Source: Enorma burkinafasonensis
GTDB lineage: Bacteria > Actinomycetota > Coriobacteriia > Coriobacteriales > Coriobacteriaceae
Reading direction: 5' to 3'
NCBI RefSeq assembly: GCF_902150035.1
Contig: NZ_LR597517.1
Span: forward strand, 1-33,410
DNA length: 33,410 bases
This document shows positions 20,458 through 23,054 of this stretch, piece after piece (the stretch's first letter is position 1; each line of letters opens with the position of its first letter). Below the pieces are notes generated by a model. The model saw only the letters and a program-made list of their open reading frames with translations, searched no databases and had not been told where the DNA came from. Both the position numbers and the translations under genes were made by a program.

Positions 20458-21333
20458 CTAGAACGCCGGCTGCGCGGAGCCGCCGAAGGTCTCCTCGAGG
20501 TAGGCCTTGAAGTCCTCGGTCTGGAGCATGGCCACGAGCGCGGCGATGCGCTCGTCGGCCTCGAGCGCGGGCGTAGTCACGATGACGTTCGCGTAGTCCT
20601 CGCGGATGGCCGTGGACTCGGCGTCCTCCATGGCCACCGCGTCGTCGAGCGAGAGCCCGGCGTCGATGGCGTAGTTGCCGTTGATGACGGCGAAGTCCAC
20701 GTCGTCCTTCGTGCGCGGCAGCGCCGCGGCCTCCTGCTCGGAGAACTCGAGGTTGTGCGGGTTTACGGCGATGTCGTTGGGGGTCGCCGTCACGCCGGCG
20801 CCCTCGTCGAGGGTGATGAGGCCCAGGTCCTGCAGGAGCAGCAGGGCGCGGCCCTCGTTGGTGGGGTCGTTCGGCACGGCGATCGTGGCACCGTCGGCGA
20901 TATTTTCGATATCGGTCGAGCGGCCCGCGAACACGGCCATCGGCTCGAAGTGGATGGCGCCGACGTTCACCAGGTCGGTCCCGTTCTCCTCGTTGTAGTC
21001 GGTGAGGTACTGGATGTGCTGGAAGTAGTTGGCGTCGATCGTGCCGTTCGAGGTGTCCTTGTTGGGCTGGATGTAGTCGGTGTACTGCTCGACCTCGAGC
21101 TCGATGCCCTGCTCGGCCAGAAGCGGCGCGGCATAGTCCTCGAGGATCACCGCGTGCGGCGAGGGGCTCGCGCCGACGGTGAGGGTGACGGTCTCATCGG
21201 CAGCGGCGGAACCGGCGGCGGACCCGGAGGCGGCATCATCGGAGCCGCAGGCGGCAAGGGCCGATGCGGCGGCGATGCCGGAGAGGCCGGCGACGAGGGA
21301 GCGACGGGAGAGGTAGATGTTCTTGAGGTTCAT
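20458..21333 (-). CDS. metQ: Methionine ABC transporter substrate-binding lipoprotein
   Basis: Captures methionine outside the membrane and delivers it to MetI. The 291-residue NlpA/MetQ-family protein has a signal sequence ending in the lipobox LAAC (LSGIAAASALAACGSD). The mature part shows the family fold signatures VGASPSPHAVILE, YIQPNKDTSNGTIDANYFQH, IAVPNDPTNEGRALLLLQ and VINGNYA. The signal peptide contains SRRSLVAG, a twin-arginine-like sequence, so export might be through Tat. ATG 21331-21333 follows AAGGAG; a longer in-frame start was discarded. It is the last gene of metNIQ, 53 bases after metI. Confidence 0.94.
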   Translation of the reverse strand: MNLKNIYLSRRSLVAGLSGIAAASALAACGSDDAASGSAAGSAAADETVTLTVGASPSPHAVILEDYAAPLLAEQGIELEVEQYTDYIQPNKDTSNGTIDANYFQHIQYLTDYNEENGTDLVNVGAIHFEPMAVFAGRSTDIENIADGATIAVPNDPTNEGRALLLLQDLGLITLDEGAGVTATPNDIAVNPHNLEFSEQEAAALPRTKDDVDFAVINGNYAIDAGLSLDDAVAMEDAESTAIREDYANVIVTTPALEADERIAALVAMLQTEDFKAYLEETFGGSAQPAF

Positions 21334-21386: not shown

Positions 21387-22073
21387 CTAGTTGCCGAGCG
21401 TGCGGTGGTCGATCCTGCGGGCGATCACGTCGCACGCGCTCTGTATGATCTGCACCAGGATGATGAGCAGCACAACGGTGACGACCATCATCTGGTCCTC
21501 GTAGCGATAGTAGCCGTAGCGGATGGCGATGTCGCCCAGGCCGCCCGCGCCCACGGCGCCGGCGATGGCCGTGTAGCCGAGCGCGGCGATGAGCGTGATC
21601 GAGACGCCGCGGACGATGGAGGGCAGCGCCTCGGGCAGAAGCGCCGAGAACACGATGCGCGGCGTGCTCGCGCCGCAGGCCTCGGCGGCCTCGACCGACT
21701 CGCGCGGGACCTCGGCGAGCGACTGCTCGATCATGCGCGCCACGAACGGCGCGATGGACACCACGAGCGGCGGGATGACGCCGCGCACGCCCGAGGTGGT
21801 GCCCACGATCGCCTCGGTCATGGGCATGAGCGAGATGAGCAGGATGATGAACGGCAGCGAGCGGCCGATGTTCACGACCCAGCCGAGCACCGCGTTGAGC
21901 GCGCCCATGGGCCTCAGCGACCCCGGCGCGGTAAGGTAGAGGATGACGCCGAGCGCCGTGCCGATCACGTAGGCGATCGCCGTCGAGATGAAGAGCATGA
22001 CGAGGGTGTCGAGCAGCCCCTGGCCAAGGAGCTCGCCGTATTCCTCGATGAAGAGCGTCACGTCGCTAGGCAT
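21387..22073 (-). CDS. metI: Methionine ABC transporter permease
   Basis: Inner-membrane permease (228 residues, about five membrane segments) of the methionine importer. The ATPase-coupling EAA loop is visible as EAAEACGASTPRIVFSALLPEALP in the second half, and IGRSLPFIILLISLMP is a MetI family signature. The ATG at 22071-22073 lies inside the end of metN (eight-base overlap) with AAAGGG about nine bases upstream, indicating translational coupling. A TTG three codons earlier would leave no spacing from the ribosome site and was rejected. Confidence 0.95.
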   Translation of the reverse strand: MPSDVTLFIEEYGELLGQGLLDTLVMLFISTAIAYVIGTALGVILYLTAPGSLRPMGALNAVLGWVVNIGRSLPFIILLISLMPMTEAIVGTTSGVRGVIPPLVVSIAPFVARMIEQSLAEVPRESVEAAEACGASTPRIVFSALLPEALPSIVRGVSITLIAALGYTAIAGAVGAGGLGDIAIRYGYYRYEDQMMVVTVVLLIILVQIIQSACDVIARRIDHRTLGN

Positions 22074-22815
22074 CCCAATCAACCCTTTCCAGCAGCACCT
22101 GCGCGGCCTCGGAGGTGGGGTTCGCGAACACCTCGTCCACGCTCCCCTGCTCCACGACGCGCCCGTGCTCGAGCACGACCACGTTGCGGCAGATCTTCTC
22201 GACCACGCCCATGGAGTGGGTGATCACGATGATGGTGACGCCGGTCTTGCGGTTGATGTCGCGCAGCAGCTTCAGGATGACGTTCGTGCTCGCCGGGTCG
22301 AGGGCGCTCGTGGCCTCGTCGCAGAGGATGTACTCGGGGTCGCACGCGAGCGCGCGGGCGATGGCCACGCGCTGCTGCTGCCCGCCGGAGAGCTGGGAGG
22401 GATACGACGCTGCCTTCTCGGCAAGACCGACCATGTCGAGCAGCTCGAGCGCGCGCTCGCGGTTCTGCGCCGTGACGCGACCCGTCGCCGCCTTGTAGGG
22501 GAAGCAGACGTTGTCGAGCACGGTCTTCTGCGCAAGCAAGCCGAAGCTCTGGAAGATCATCGCCACGCGGCGACGGTAGCTGCGAAGCGCCGCACCCGAG
22601 AGCCCGGTCACGTCCTGGCCGTCGACCACTACCTTGCCCGACGTGGGGCGCTCGAGCAGGTTGATGCAGCGCACGAGCGTCGACTTGCCGGCACCGCTCA
22701 TGCCGATGATGCCCACGATGTCGCCGTCATCGATCGAGATGGTGACGTCGTCGAGGGCGCGCGGCGCCGAGTCAGCGGTACCGTAGGACTTGGTGAGGTG
22801 TTGGATTTCTATCAC
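22066..22815 (-). CDS. metN: Methionine ABC transporter ATP-binding protein, lacking the C-terminal sensor domain
   Basis: ATPase that powers the importer. Walker A GMSGAGKST (38-46), the Q-loop (FQS), signature LSGGQQQR (142-149), Walker B ILCDEATSALDP and the switch His (THSMG) are all present. The protein ends at residue 249 (ERVDWDA), whereas standard MetN is about 340 residues with a C-terminal NIL/ACT-like domain that binds methionine and inhibits transport. That domain is absent here, and the reading frame runs straight into metI, so this is not a recent frameshift inside the domain. The start is GTG 22813-22815 with GGAG six bases upstream. An in-frame ATG 58 codons earlier gives an unrelated low-quality extension and was rejected. 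Confidence 0.92.
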   Translation of the reverse strand: MIEIQHLTKSYGTADSAPRALDDVTISIDDGDIVGIIGMSGAGKSTLVRCINLLERPTSGKVVVDGQDVTGLSGAALRSYRRRVAMIFQSFGLLAQKTVLDNVCFPYKAATGRVTAQNRERALELLDMVGLAEKAASYPSQLSGGQQQRVAIARALACDPEYILCDEATSALDPASTNVILKLLRDINRKTGVTIIVITHSMGVVEKICRNVVVLEHGRVVEQGSVDEVFANPTSEAAQVLLERVDWDA

Positions 22816-22850
22816 GGGGAGCTCCGCTCGATGGATATGGTCTTGAGGAA

Positions 22851-22899
22851 GGCGGGCCATCTCCCGCCGGAGACGACCTAGTTGAGGCGCCCGGTCTCC
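22851..22899 (-). promoter_or_regulatory. Alternative hairpins between Met leader and metN (putative attenuator)
   Basis: Read on the minus strand, GGAGAC (22894-22899) can pair with GTCTCC (22869-22874) across the leader's stop codon. GGCGGG (22863-22868) and CCCGCC (22851-22856) form a second hairpin directly after. TCTCC can instead pair with GGAGA across the junction, and the GGGGAG of the leader can also pair with CTCCCC (22816-22821) next to the metN start. The competing folds suggest attenuation. There is no clear U-tract after the last hairpin, so control may be translational or by Rho. Confidence 0.45.
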
Positions 22900-22994
22900 C
22901 CATGCGCGCTGCTTGCGAGCGGCATGGCAAAGTGCCCGGGCGAGGGCATCTCCATGACCATCATCATCGCGATATGTGAGGCAGCGCAAATCAT
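22878..22994 (-). CDS. Met-rich leader peptide upstream of metNIQ
   Basis: A 38-codon open frame ends 62 bases before metN. Met occurs at positions 1, 10, 11, 12, 14, 16 and 24, with the core sequence MMMVMEM, and the stop lies inside the first of two alternative hairpins. The ATG at 22992-22994 has TAGG eight bases upstream. A shorter version starting at the Met run (ATG 22965-22967, 29 codons) lacks any ribosome site. Clustered codons for the transported amino acid directly ahead of the transporter operon are the hallmark of a ribosome-stalling attenuator leader. This identification is inference; I know of no named family for it. Confidence 0.55.
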   Translation of the reverse strand: MICAASHIAMMMVMEMPSPGHFAMPLASSAHGETGRLN

Positions 22995-23011
22995 ATGTTT
23001 AGCCTAGCAGC

Positions 23012-23027
23012 GCGCATCCGGATGCGC
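23012..23027. promoter_or_regulatory. 16-bp perfect palindrome in the met operon promoter region
   Basis: GCGCATCCGGATGCGC is fully self-complementary. On the minus strand it falls between a weak TTGCGC (-35-like) and TAGGCT (-10-like, 17-base spacing), about 20 bases ahead of the Met leader start. It could be an operator for a dimeric repressor, or chance in GC-rich DNA. Confidence 0.35.
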
Positions 23028-23054
23028 AAGCGGAAACAGGCTCGAAATACGCGA

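Follow-up and report, generated by a model that had tools for sequence, protein, structure and literature searches.

What does a short reading frame crowded with methionine codons do directly ahead of genes for methionine import? The question is raised by a stretch of 33,410 nucleotides from Enorma burkinafasonensis (Coriobacteriaceae), here called the window, in which a 38-codon open reading frame on the minus strand encodes MICAASHIAMMMVMEMPSPGHFAMPLASSAHGETGRLN, followed by a stop codon, with methionine at positions 1, 10, 11, 12, 14, 16 and 24. The operon downstream of this leader is metNIQ, that is, methionine import genes, and 62 nt separate the leader stop from the GTG start of metN (22815). 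Leader-peptide attenuation is a textbook device, while in Gram-positive bacteria RNA control of methionine genes usually falls to the SAM-I riboswitch (S box) and the T-box (see also PMC1262725), alongside repressors. A first-pass annotation of the DNA had reported the frame, its seven methionines and its distance from metN, all confirmed by translation of 22994..22878. It had also proposed a ribosome-mediated attenuator, allowing that the Met run might be chance repetition of ATG triplets.

The analysis described here indicates that the leader is likely a methionine-responsive, ribosome-mediated attenuator of metNIQ, the response to methionine being predicted from comparative sequence evidence. 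This reading follows from the combination of a Met run suited to act as sensor, targets in methionine import and synthesis, and competing hairpins that could provide the output.

Organisation of the leader locus

The features of the locus are collected in Table 1, where A2 denotes an alignment of 45 metN leaders. The scores of MetN (TIGR02314) and MetI (NF008049) lie below the curated cut-offs, yet these models are the best matches for each protein. An HMM search finds a single copy of the leader in the genome to which the window belongs.

Table 1. Leader, RNA segments and downstream operon in the window
Feature	Position	Strand	Evidence or remark
-35-like hexamer TTGCGC of leader promoter	23024..23029	-	17 nt 5' of the -10; first T of TTG invariant, TGC near-invariant (45 metN leaders)
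-10-like hexamer TAGGCT	23001..23006	-	leader ATG 6 nt further on; TA...T invariant near ATG, 45/45
Leader frame, 38 codons and stop TAG, proposed name metL	22878..22994	-	conservation, in-frame starts
Met run, codons 10-16 (ATG ATG ATG GTC ATG GAG ATG), putative sensor codons	22947..22967	-	Met cluster in 42/42 family leaders
Segment A, CGCCCGG, codons S18-G20, directly 3' of Met run	22936..22942	-	pairs with B; covaries across families
Segment B, GGAGACCGGGCGCC; A-pairing part CCGGGCG, possible C1-pairing part GGAGAC	22886..22899	-	pairing in alignment
Segment C1, GGTCGTCTCC; begins with the last base (G) of the leader stop TAG	22869..22878	-	covariation with C2
Segment C2, GGAGATGGCC; partner of C1, with GGCG in the loop	22855..22864	-	two-sided changes at 9/10 pairs
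Alternative terminator-like hairpin C2:D, GGCGGG (22868-22863) and CCCGCC (22856-22851), then UUCCU	22846..22868	-	z < -1 in 38/45
Shine-Dalgarno-like element of metN, GAGCGGAG	22822..22829	-	largely conserved in A2
metN, ATPase of the methionine ABC transporter, GTG start	22066..22815	-	TIGR02314, E 3.6e-92, 309 bits
metI, permease, ATG start assigned in the analysis	21387..22073	-	NF008049, E 4e-60, 203 bits
metQ (MetQ/NlpA), substrate-binding lipoprotein, ATG start assigned in the analysis	20458..21333	-	Pfam Lipoprotein_9, E 9e-81

Immediately 5' of the leader, the window carries an Asp23-family gene (23654-23094, minus strand), and the C-terminal end of such a gene is likewise found upstream in L006, L007 and L009. 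In the congeners L006 and L009, the interval from the Asp23 gene to the leader contains palindromic repeat units, approximately 100-300 nt 5' of the leader promoter, that differ between the two.

Conservation within Coriobacteriaceae

The family sample comprised 67 genomes of Coriobacteriaceae (the Collinsella family), all of which were searched for MetN. An ortholog is present in 42, and inspection of every upstream region showed that each of the 42 carries the leader, once (for example, MFTVAAHITMMMVMEMPSPGHFVMSRDRRGHAETGRLR and MFTYSAHMMMAMAMEMPSPGHLAACVACGETGRL). Conservation had been named as the key test of the proposal, and the metN upstream regions of relatives bear it out: the frame, its start and the Met cluster are retained while the surrounding DNA drifts. 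The number of methionines and the neighbouring residues vary among leaders, while the frame stays constant.

A leader HMM gives one strong match in each of the 42 metN-bearing genomes (E 1e-12 to 4e-20) and no significant match in the 25 family genomes that lack metN (best E 0.018). The model was built from 34 leader peptides (A3), partly these same family leaders, and the clean part of the test is therefore its silence in the 25 metN-less genomes. All 25 genomes without metN and leader, including G009-G023, belong to one genus, g3, which matches Collinsella. Pattern matches in these genomes (L106-L114) fall inside long open reading frames and were set aside as noise.

Histidine ahead of the Met run is encoded by CAT without exception and never by CAC, despite the GC-rich genomes, and the tetranucleotide ACAT (22973-22976 in the window) is invariant in A2. 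This constitutes a constraint at the nucleotide level, for which no pairing partner was found.

Leaders across the class

The distribution of the leader extends well beyond one family. At E 1e-3, the HMM matches 103 of 398 genomes of the class Coriobacteriia, spread over 37 genera, with two or three copies in three of them. In Coriobacteriales, including families beyond Coriobacteriaceae, the leaders sit ahead of metN. In other orders, most precede metY, the gene for O-acetylhomoserine sulfhydrylase in methionine synthesis, and have a Shine-Dalgarno sequence, GGAGGTG, before the leader (for example, MVRLSVFVMMMDMMMTQPGSGRVGGCSGRLGHPAGR). At one locus, the identity of metY was checked against TIGR01326 (O-acetylhomoserine aminocarboxypropyltransferase), giving 649 bits where the cut-off is 495. 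All genuine leaders that were inspected lie upstream of either metN or metY. Outside Coriobacteriales, nearly all of the leaders with a Met run (L060, L061, L063-L068, L070-L081, L124, L179-L194) stand ahead of metY. Both the metY leaders and the f2 HMM leaders were found by pattern or HMM, and so indicate the extent of the leader, not its frequency.

Where the HMM finds no match, metN upstream regions of other families may carry a shorter form. This was recognised in about 23 of 60 such regions. It mostly has fewer methionines, and its core reads M-[PL]-K-P-G or a near variant (for example, MNFEFVHSMMMCMPKPGFVGVRADTQA); in some families, the Met count falls to two. A nucleotide pattern for the core matches 21 of these 60 regions on the forward strand vs one on the reverse strand. 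The remaining regions of the 60 contain no recognisable leader, which counts against the attenuator reading, and in several metQ precedes metN. One operon that starts with metQ (L395) has a Met-dense short frame, MTMAMSMYMPSSRAPRLARVFAA, roughly 100-150 nt 5' of metQ, starting some 1126 nt ahead of metN. This frame, perhaps an independent methionine leader, is the one possible case of a leader before a leading metQ among the few genomes examined.

In a 396-genome sample of the phylum, the HMM detected nothing outside the class, a search that divergent forms could escape. Pattern matches outside Coriobacteriia in public genomes proved to be long open reading frames or unrelated short frames and were rejected.

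Evidence for a reading frame

Leader starts can be placed independently of the frame. In metN leaders, the criterion was an ATG that follows the end of a -35/-10 pair by 5-7 nt; in metY leaders, it was the first ATG downstream of GGAGG. Each of the 101 starts so placed shares its frame with the Met run and is separated from it by 10 to 19 open codons, although the 101 leaders are related by descent and are not 101 independent events. In Coriobacteriaceae (f1), all leaders (42/42) have the promoter pair at 5-7 nt from the ATG. The promoter rule placed no start in 29 other metN leaders, and a strict consensus scan did not call the -10 of the window.

The spacer between start and Met run occurs in nine different lengths, every one a multiple of three, which is hard to account for without a reading frame. 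Similarly, leaders average 3.0 to 5.5 Met codons in frame vs 0 to 0.03 in the other frames. Chance repetition of ATG triplets is thus rejected on the strength of both conservation (42/42 against 0/25 family genomes) and the frame test. The leader is a reading frame, and is predicted to be translated. In metN-type leaders, the invariant -10, approximately 6-7 nt before the ATG in A2, suggests that the transcript is probably leaderless.

RNA hairpins and their covariation

The alternative hairpins noted earlier around the end of the leader are indeed present. Segment A begins two codons past the last Met of the run, and its pairing with B (CGCCCGG:CCGGGCG) holds in 97.8% of cells across 45 sequences, compared with 12-43% when the register is slid. 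Within the family the A:B pairing is nearly invariant; across families it takes the forms GCCCGGG:CCGGGC, GCCUGGG:CUCAGGC and GCCCAAGC:GUUUGGGC. Cross-family covariation amounts to 19 two-sided cells vs 5.5 in shuffles (0/500), in an alignment assembled from 24 distinct A and B arms, with the register chosen by the analyst, so that the test is biased towards pairing. Covariation was used here instead of duplex energy, which did not discriminate A:B from mononucleotide shuffles in the GC-rich f1 leaders.

The C1:C2 hairpin shows two-sided changes at nine of its ten pairs, with 44 such cells vs 10.3 in shuffles (0/500). Against mononucleotide shuffles, the mean z is -3.2 for A..B, -4.1 for C1..C2 and -2.1 for C2..D, and z falls below -1 in 45/45 sequences for C1..C2 and in 38/45 for C2..D. 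B:C1 and C2:D, two competing pairings that draw on the arms of A:B and C1:C2, are themselves less well supported.

In at least seven leaders (L039, L094, L158, L159, L161-L163), the stop codon lies 5' of B, and B is still kept. In L335 and L379, the stop falls inside segment A, and the RNA segments are likewise retained. Since the segments persist where the stop precedes them, they are kept as RNA rather than as peptide.

Terminator-like signals and the possible wiring of the leader

U-rich positions occur at +5 to +9 after C2, following CGCC, in 35 family loci. Because they start five bases after C2, the hairpin GGCGGG..CCCGCC-UUCUU (C2:D) is the likelier candidate for an intrinsic terminator. 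In the window itself, the U-tract is poor (UUCCU) and strict scanning for terminators called none, which is a weak point of the reading; the same scan called a canonical terminator-like site in the congener L007.

In Coriobacteriaceae, an arrangement in which C2:D is the terminator is favoured, although the choice between it and a classical arrangement is close to even. Transcription would begin at the leader ATG. With charged Met-tRNA plentiful, the ribosome would proceed to the stop codon and cover C1, preventing C1:C2, and C2:D would then terminate transcription before metN. With methionine scarce, the ribosome would wait in the Met run, A:B and C1:C2 would form, C2:D would be blocked, and metNIQ would be transcribed. 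Three features speak for this arrangement: D is followed by a U-rich tail, C1 overlaps the stop codon, and C1:C2 is strong. Against it stand the leaders, at least seven, that stop before B.

The classical, trp-like arrangement is a real contender, to be held tentatively. Here, the same sensor would be read differently, with C1:C2 as the OFF structure: a ribosome stalled on the last Met would cover A, B would pair with C1, and C1:C2 would be prevented. The arrangement gains from the constant distance between the last Met and A, since a ribosome stalled two codons away would be well placed to cover A, and from the leaders that end just before B, which fit only if covering B means OFF. The GAGAC motif is kept even where it is untranslated, and GGAGAC:GUCUCC pairs in 85% of cells vs 28-62% when slid. 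However, B:C1 has no covariation excess and a mean z of -0.7, and the U-rich positions come after D, four bases past C2.

A further alternative retains the same sensor and changes the output to translation initiation, or to Rho-dependent termination, at least in the f2 and metY loci. Neither the f2 relatives nor the metY loci inspected show a U-tract (none at all in f2, none obvious in metY). The Shine-Dalgarno region of metN, AUCGAGCGGAG, is well conserved, and part of it is complementary to the CUCCG of C1. Seliverstov 2005 (PMC1262725) also describes leaders in Actinobacteria that have no obvious terminator. This output is possible, if rather doubtful. Leaders of f1 mostly have CGCC followed by a U-rich stretch, L007 has its canonical terminator-like site, and the relatives L049 and L050 alter the Shine-Dalgarno region with C1 unchanged. 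Under the favoured attenuation model, the other families would combine the same sensor with different downstream hairpins, possibly with translational or Rho control.

Known RNA controls and a possible small protein

The earlier statement that no SAM riboswitch or T-box is visible holds up. At the Rfam gathering threshold, nothing matches the locus, in the window or in relatives, and relaxing the search to E up to 10 adds only implausible matches. The SAM-I riboswitch (RF00162) has no match at the locus or anywhere in the genome, and the T-box (RF00230) has none at the leader locus. The leader thus resembles these elements in being a putative RNA control of methionine genes, and differs in that neither matches it. 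Two weak, sub-threshold T-box matches lie on other contigs of the window's genome (L382, G000:C29:31623-31740; L383, G000:C13:174727-174844).

A metabolite-binding riboswitch for SAM or methionine, with the ATG triplets incidental, would account for the conserved RNA segments, the covarying hairpins and the third base of the CAU before the Met run, which never changes in A2. Besides the absence of an Rfam match in the window or relatives, it has to contend with a start-to-run spacer that varies in whole codons only and is always open, and with a Met number that varies while the frame is kept, and is very improbable. That the frame specifies a small Met-rich protein with a function of its own (metal binding, for example), merely cotranscribed with metNIQ, can hardly be credited despite the conserved peptide and its H...M-rich pattern, given that early stops remove the C-terminal part in some species while the RNA segment stays, that the peptide has no Pfam match, that some families have as few as two methionines, and that the frame is linked to methionine genes.

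Relation to known leaders

The proposed attenuator shares its main elements with those of trpL, hisL, leuL, ilvL and pheL: a short open reading frame in which the codon for the regulated amino acid is abundant, hairpins that exclude one another, a leader stop adjoining the control hairpin, and a terminator-like hairpin ahead of the operon. Unlike trpL-type attenuators, it uses methionine, whose only codon is the start codon, has a transporter operon as its target, and probably starts leaderless.

Two methionine leaders have been proposed previously. Campylobacter jejuni MetL, of 20 amino acids with three Met codons, precedes metBA and is a proposed attenuator for which a short terminated RNA was seen (Porcelli et al. 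2013, PMC3847290). It is similar in being a short Met-containing frame ahead of methionine genes. However, it serves a biosynthetic operon in a different phylum and is limited to three species, C. jejuni, C. coli and C. doylei (PMC3847290). Streptomyces lividans metL, MSTTSDRTPATEATTTPGARCMCRRMCAF, is similar as a proposed leader of metNIQ with a leaderless start; the passages of that paper on metL call termination unclear (PMC8079986). By eye, it differs from the present leaders in having two internal methionines, no Met run and no MPxPG core, and the same passages do not show conservation (PMC8079986). Both precedents are unproven single-lineage proposals.

Seliverstov et al. (2005) found no conserved RNA structures upstream of methionine operons in Actinobacteria (PMC1262725), and the excerpts available from a broad attenuator screen report no methionine leader (PMC2965389). 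Among open-licence papers, no established methionine leader family was found beyond the two precedents. As far as could be found, methionine leader attenuation elsewhere has been proposed in isolated cases and never demonstrated. While the principle of attenuation is known, a methionine-specific family conserved this deeply and common to metN and metY appears to be new.

Implications for Coriobacteriia

Conservation, covarying hairpins and the recurrence of the leader at a second methionine gene, metY, support the ribosome-mediated arrangement that was first suspected in the window, with the response to methionine predicted from these same features. Taken across the class, the leaders probably represent a methionine-specific attenuator, the first with broad comparative support, which would act on import through metNIQ in Coriobacteriales and, in sister orders, on synthesis through metY. 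The codon it senses doubles as the start codon. Leaders of the metN type would moreover be translated from a leaderless RNA, so that initiation and sensing would rely on the same amino acid. This also constitutes a point against an attenuator, as a shortage of methionine should impair initiation at the leader too. It raises the question of how a starvation sensor works when its own start codon requires methionine.

A conserved methionine leader would fill a regulatory gap in Coriobacteriia, which are common gut bacteria, and would gauge charged Met-tRNA instead of SAM. The leader HMM can be used for annotating the regulation of metN and metY throughout the class.
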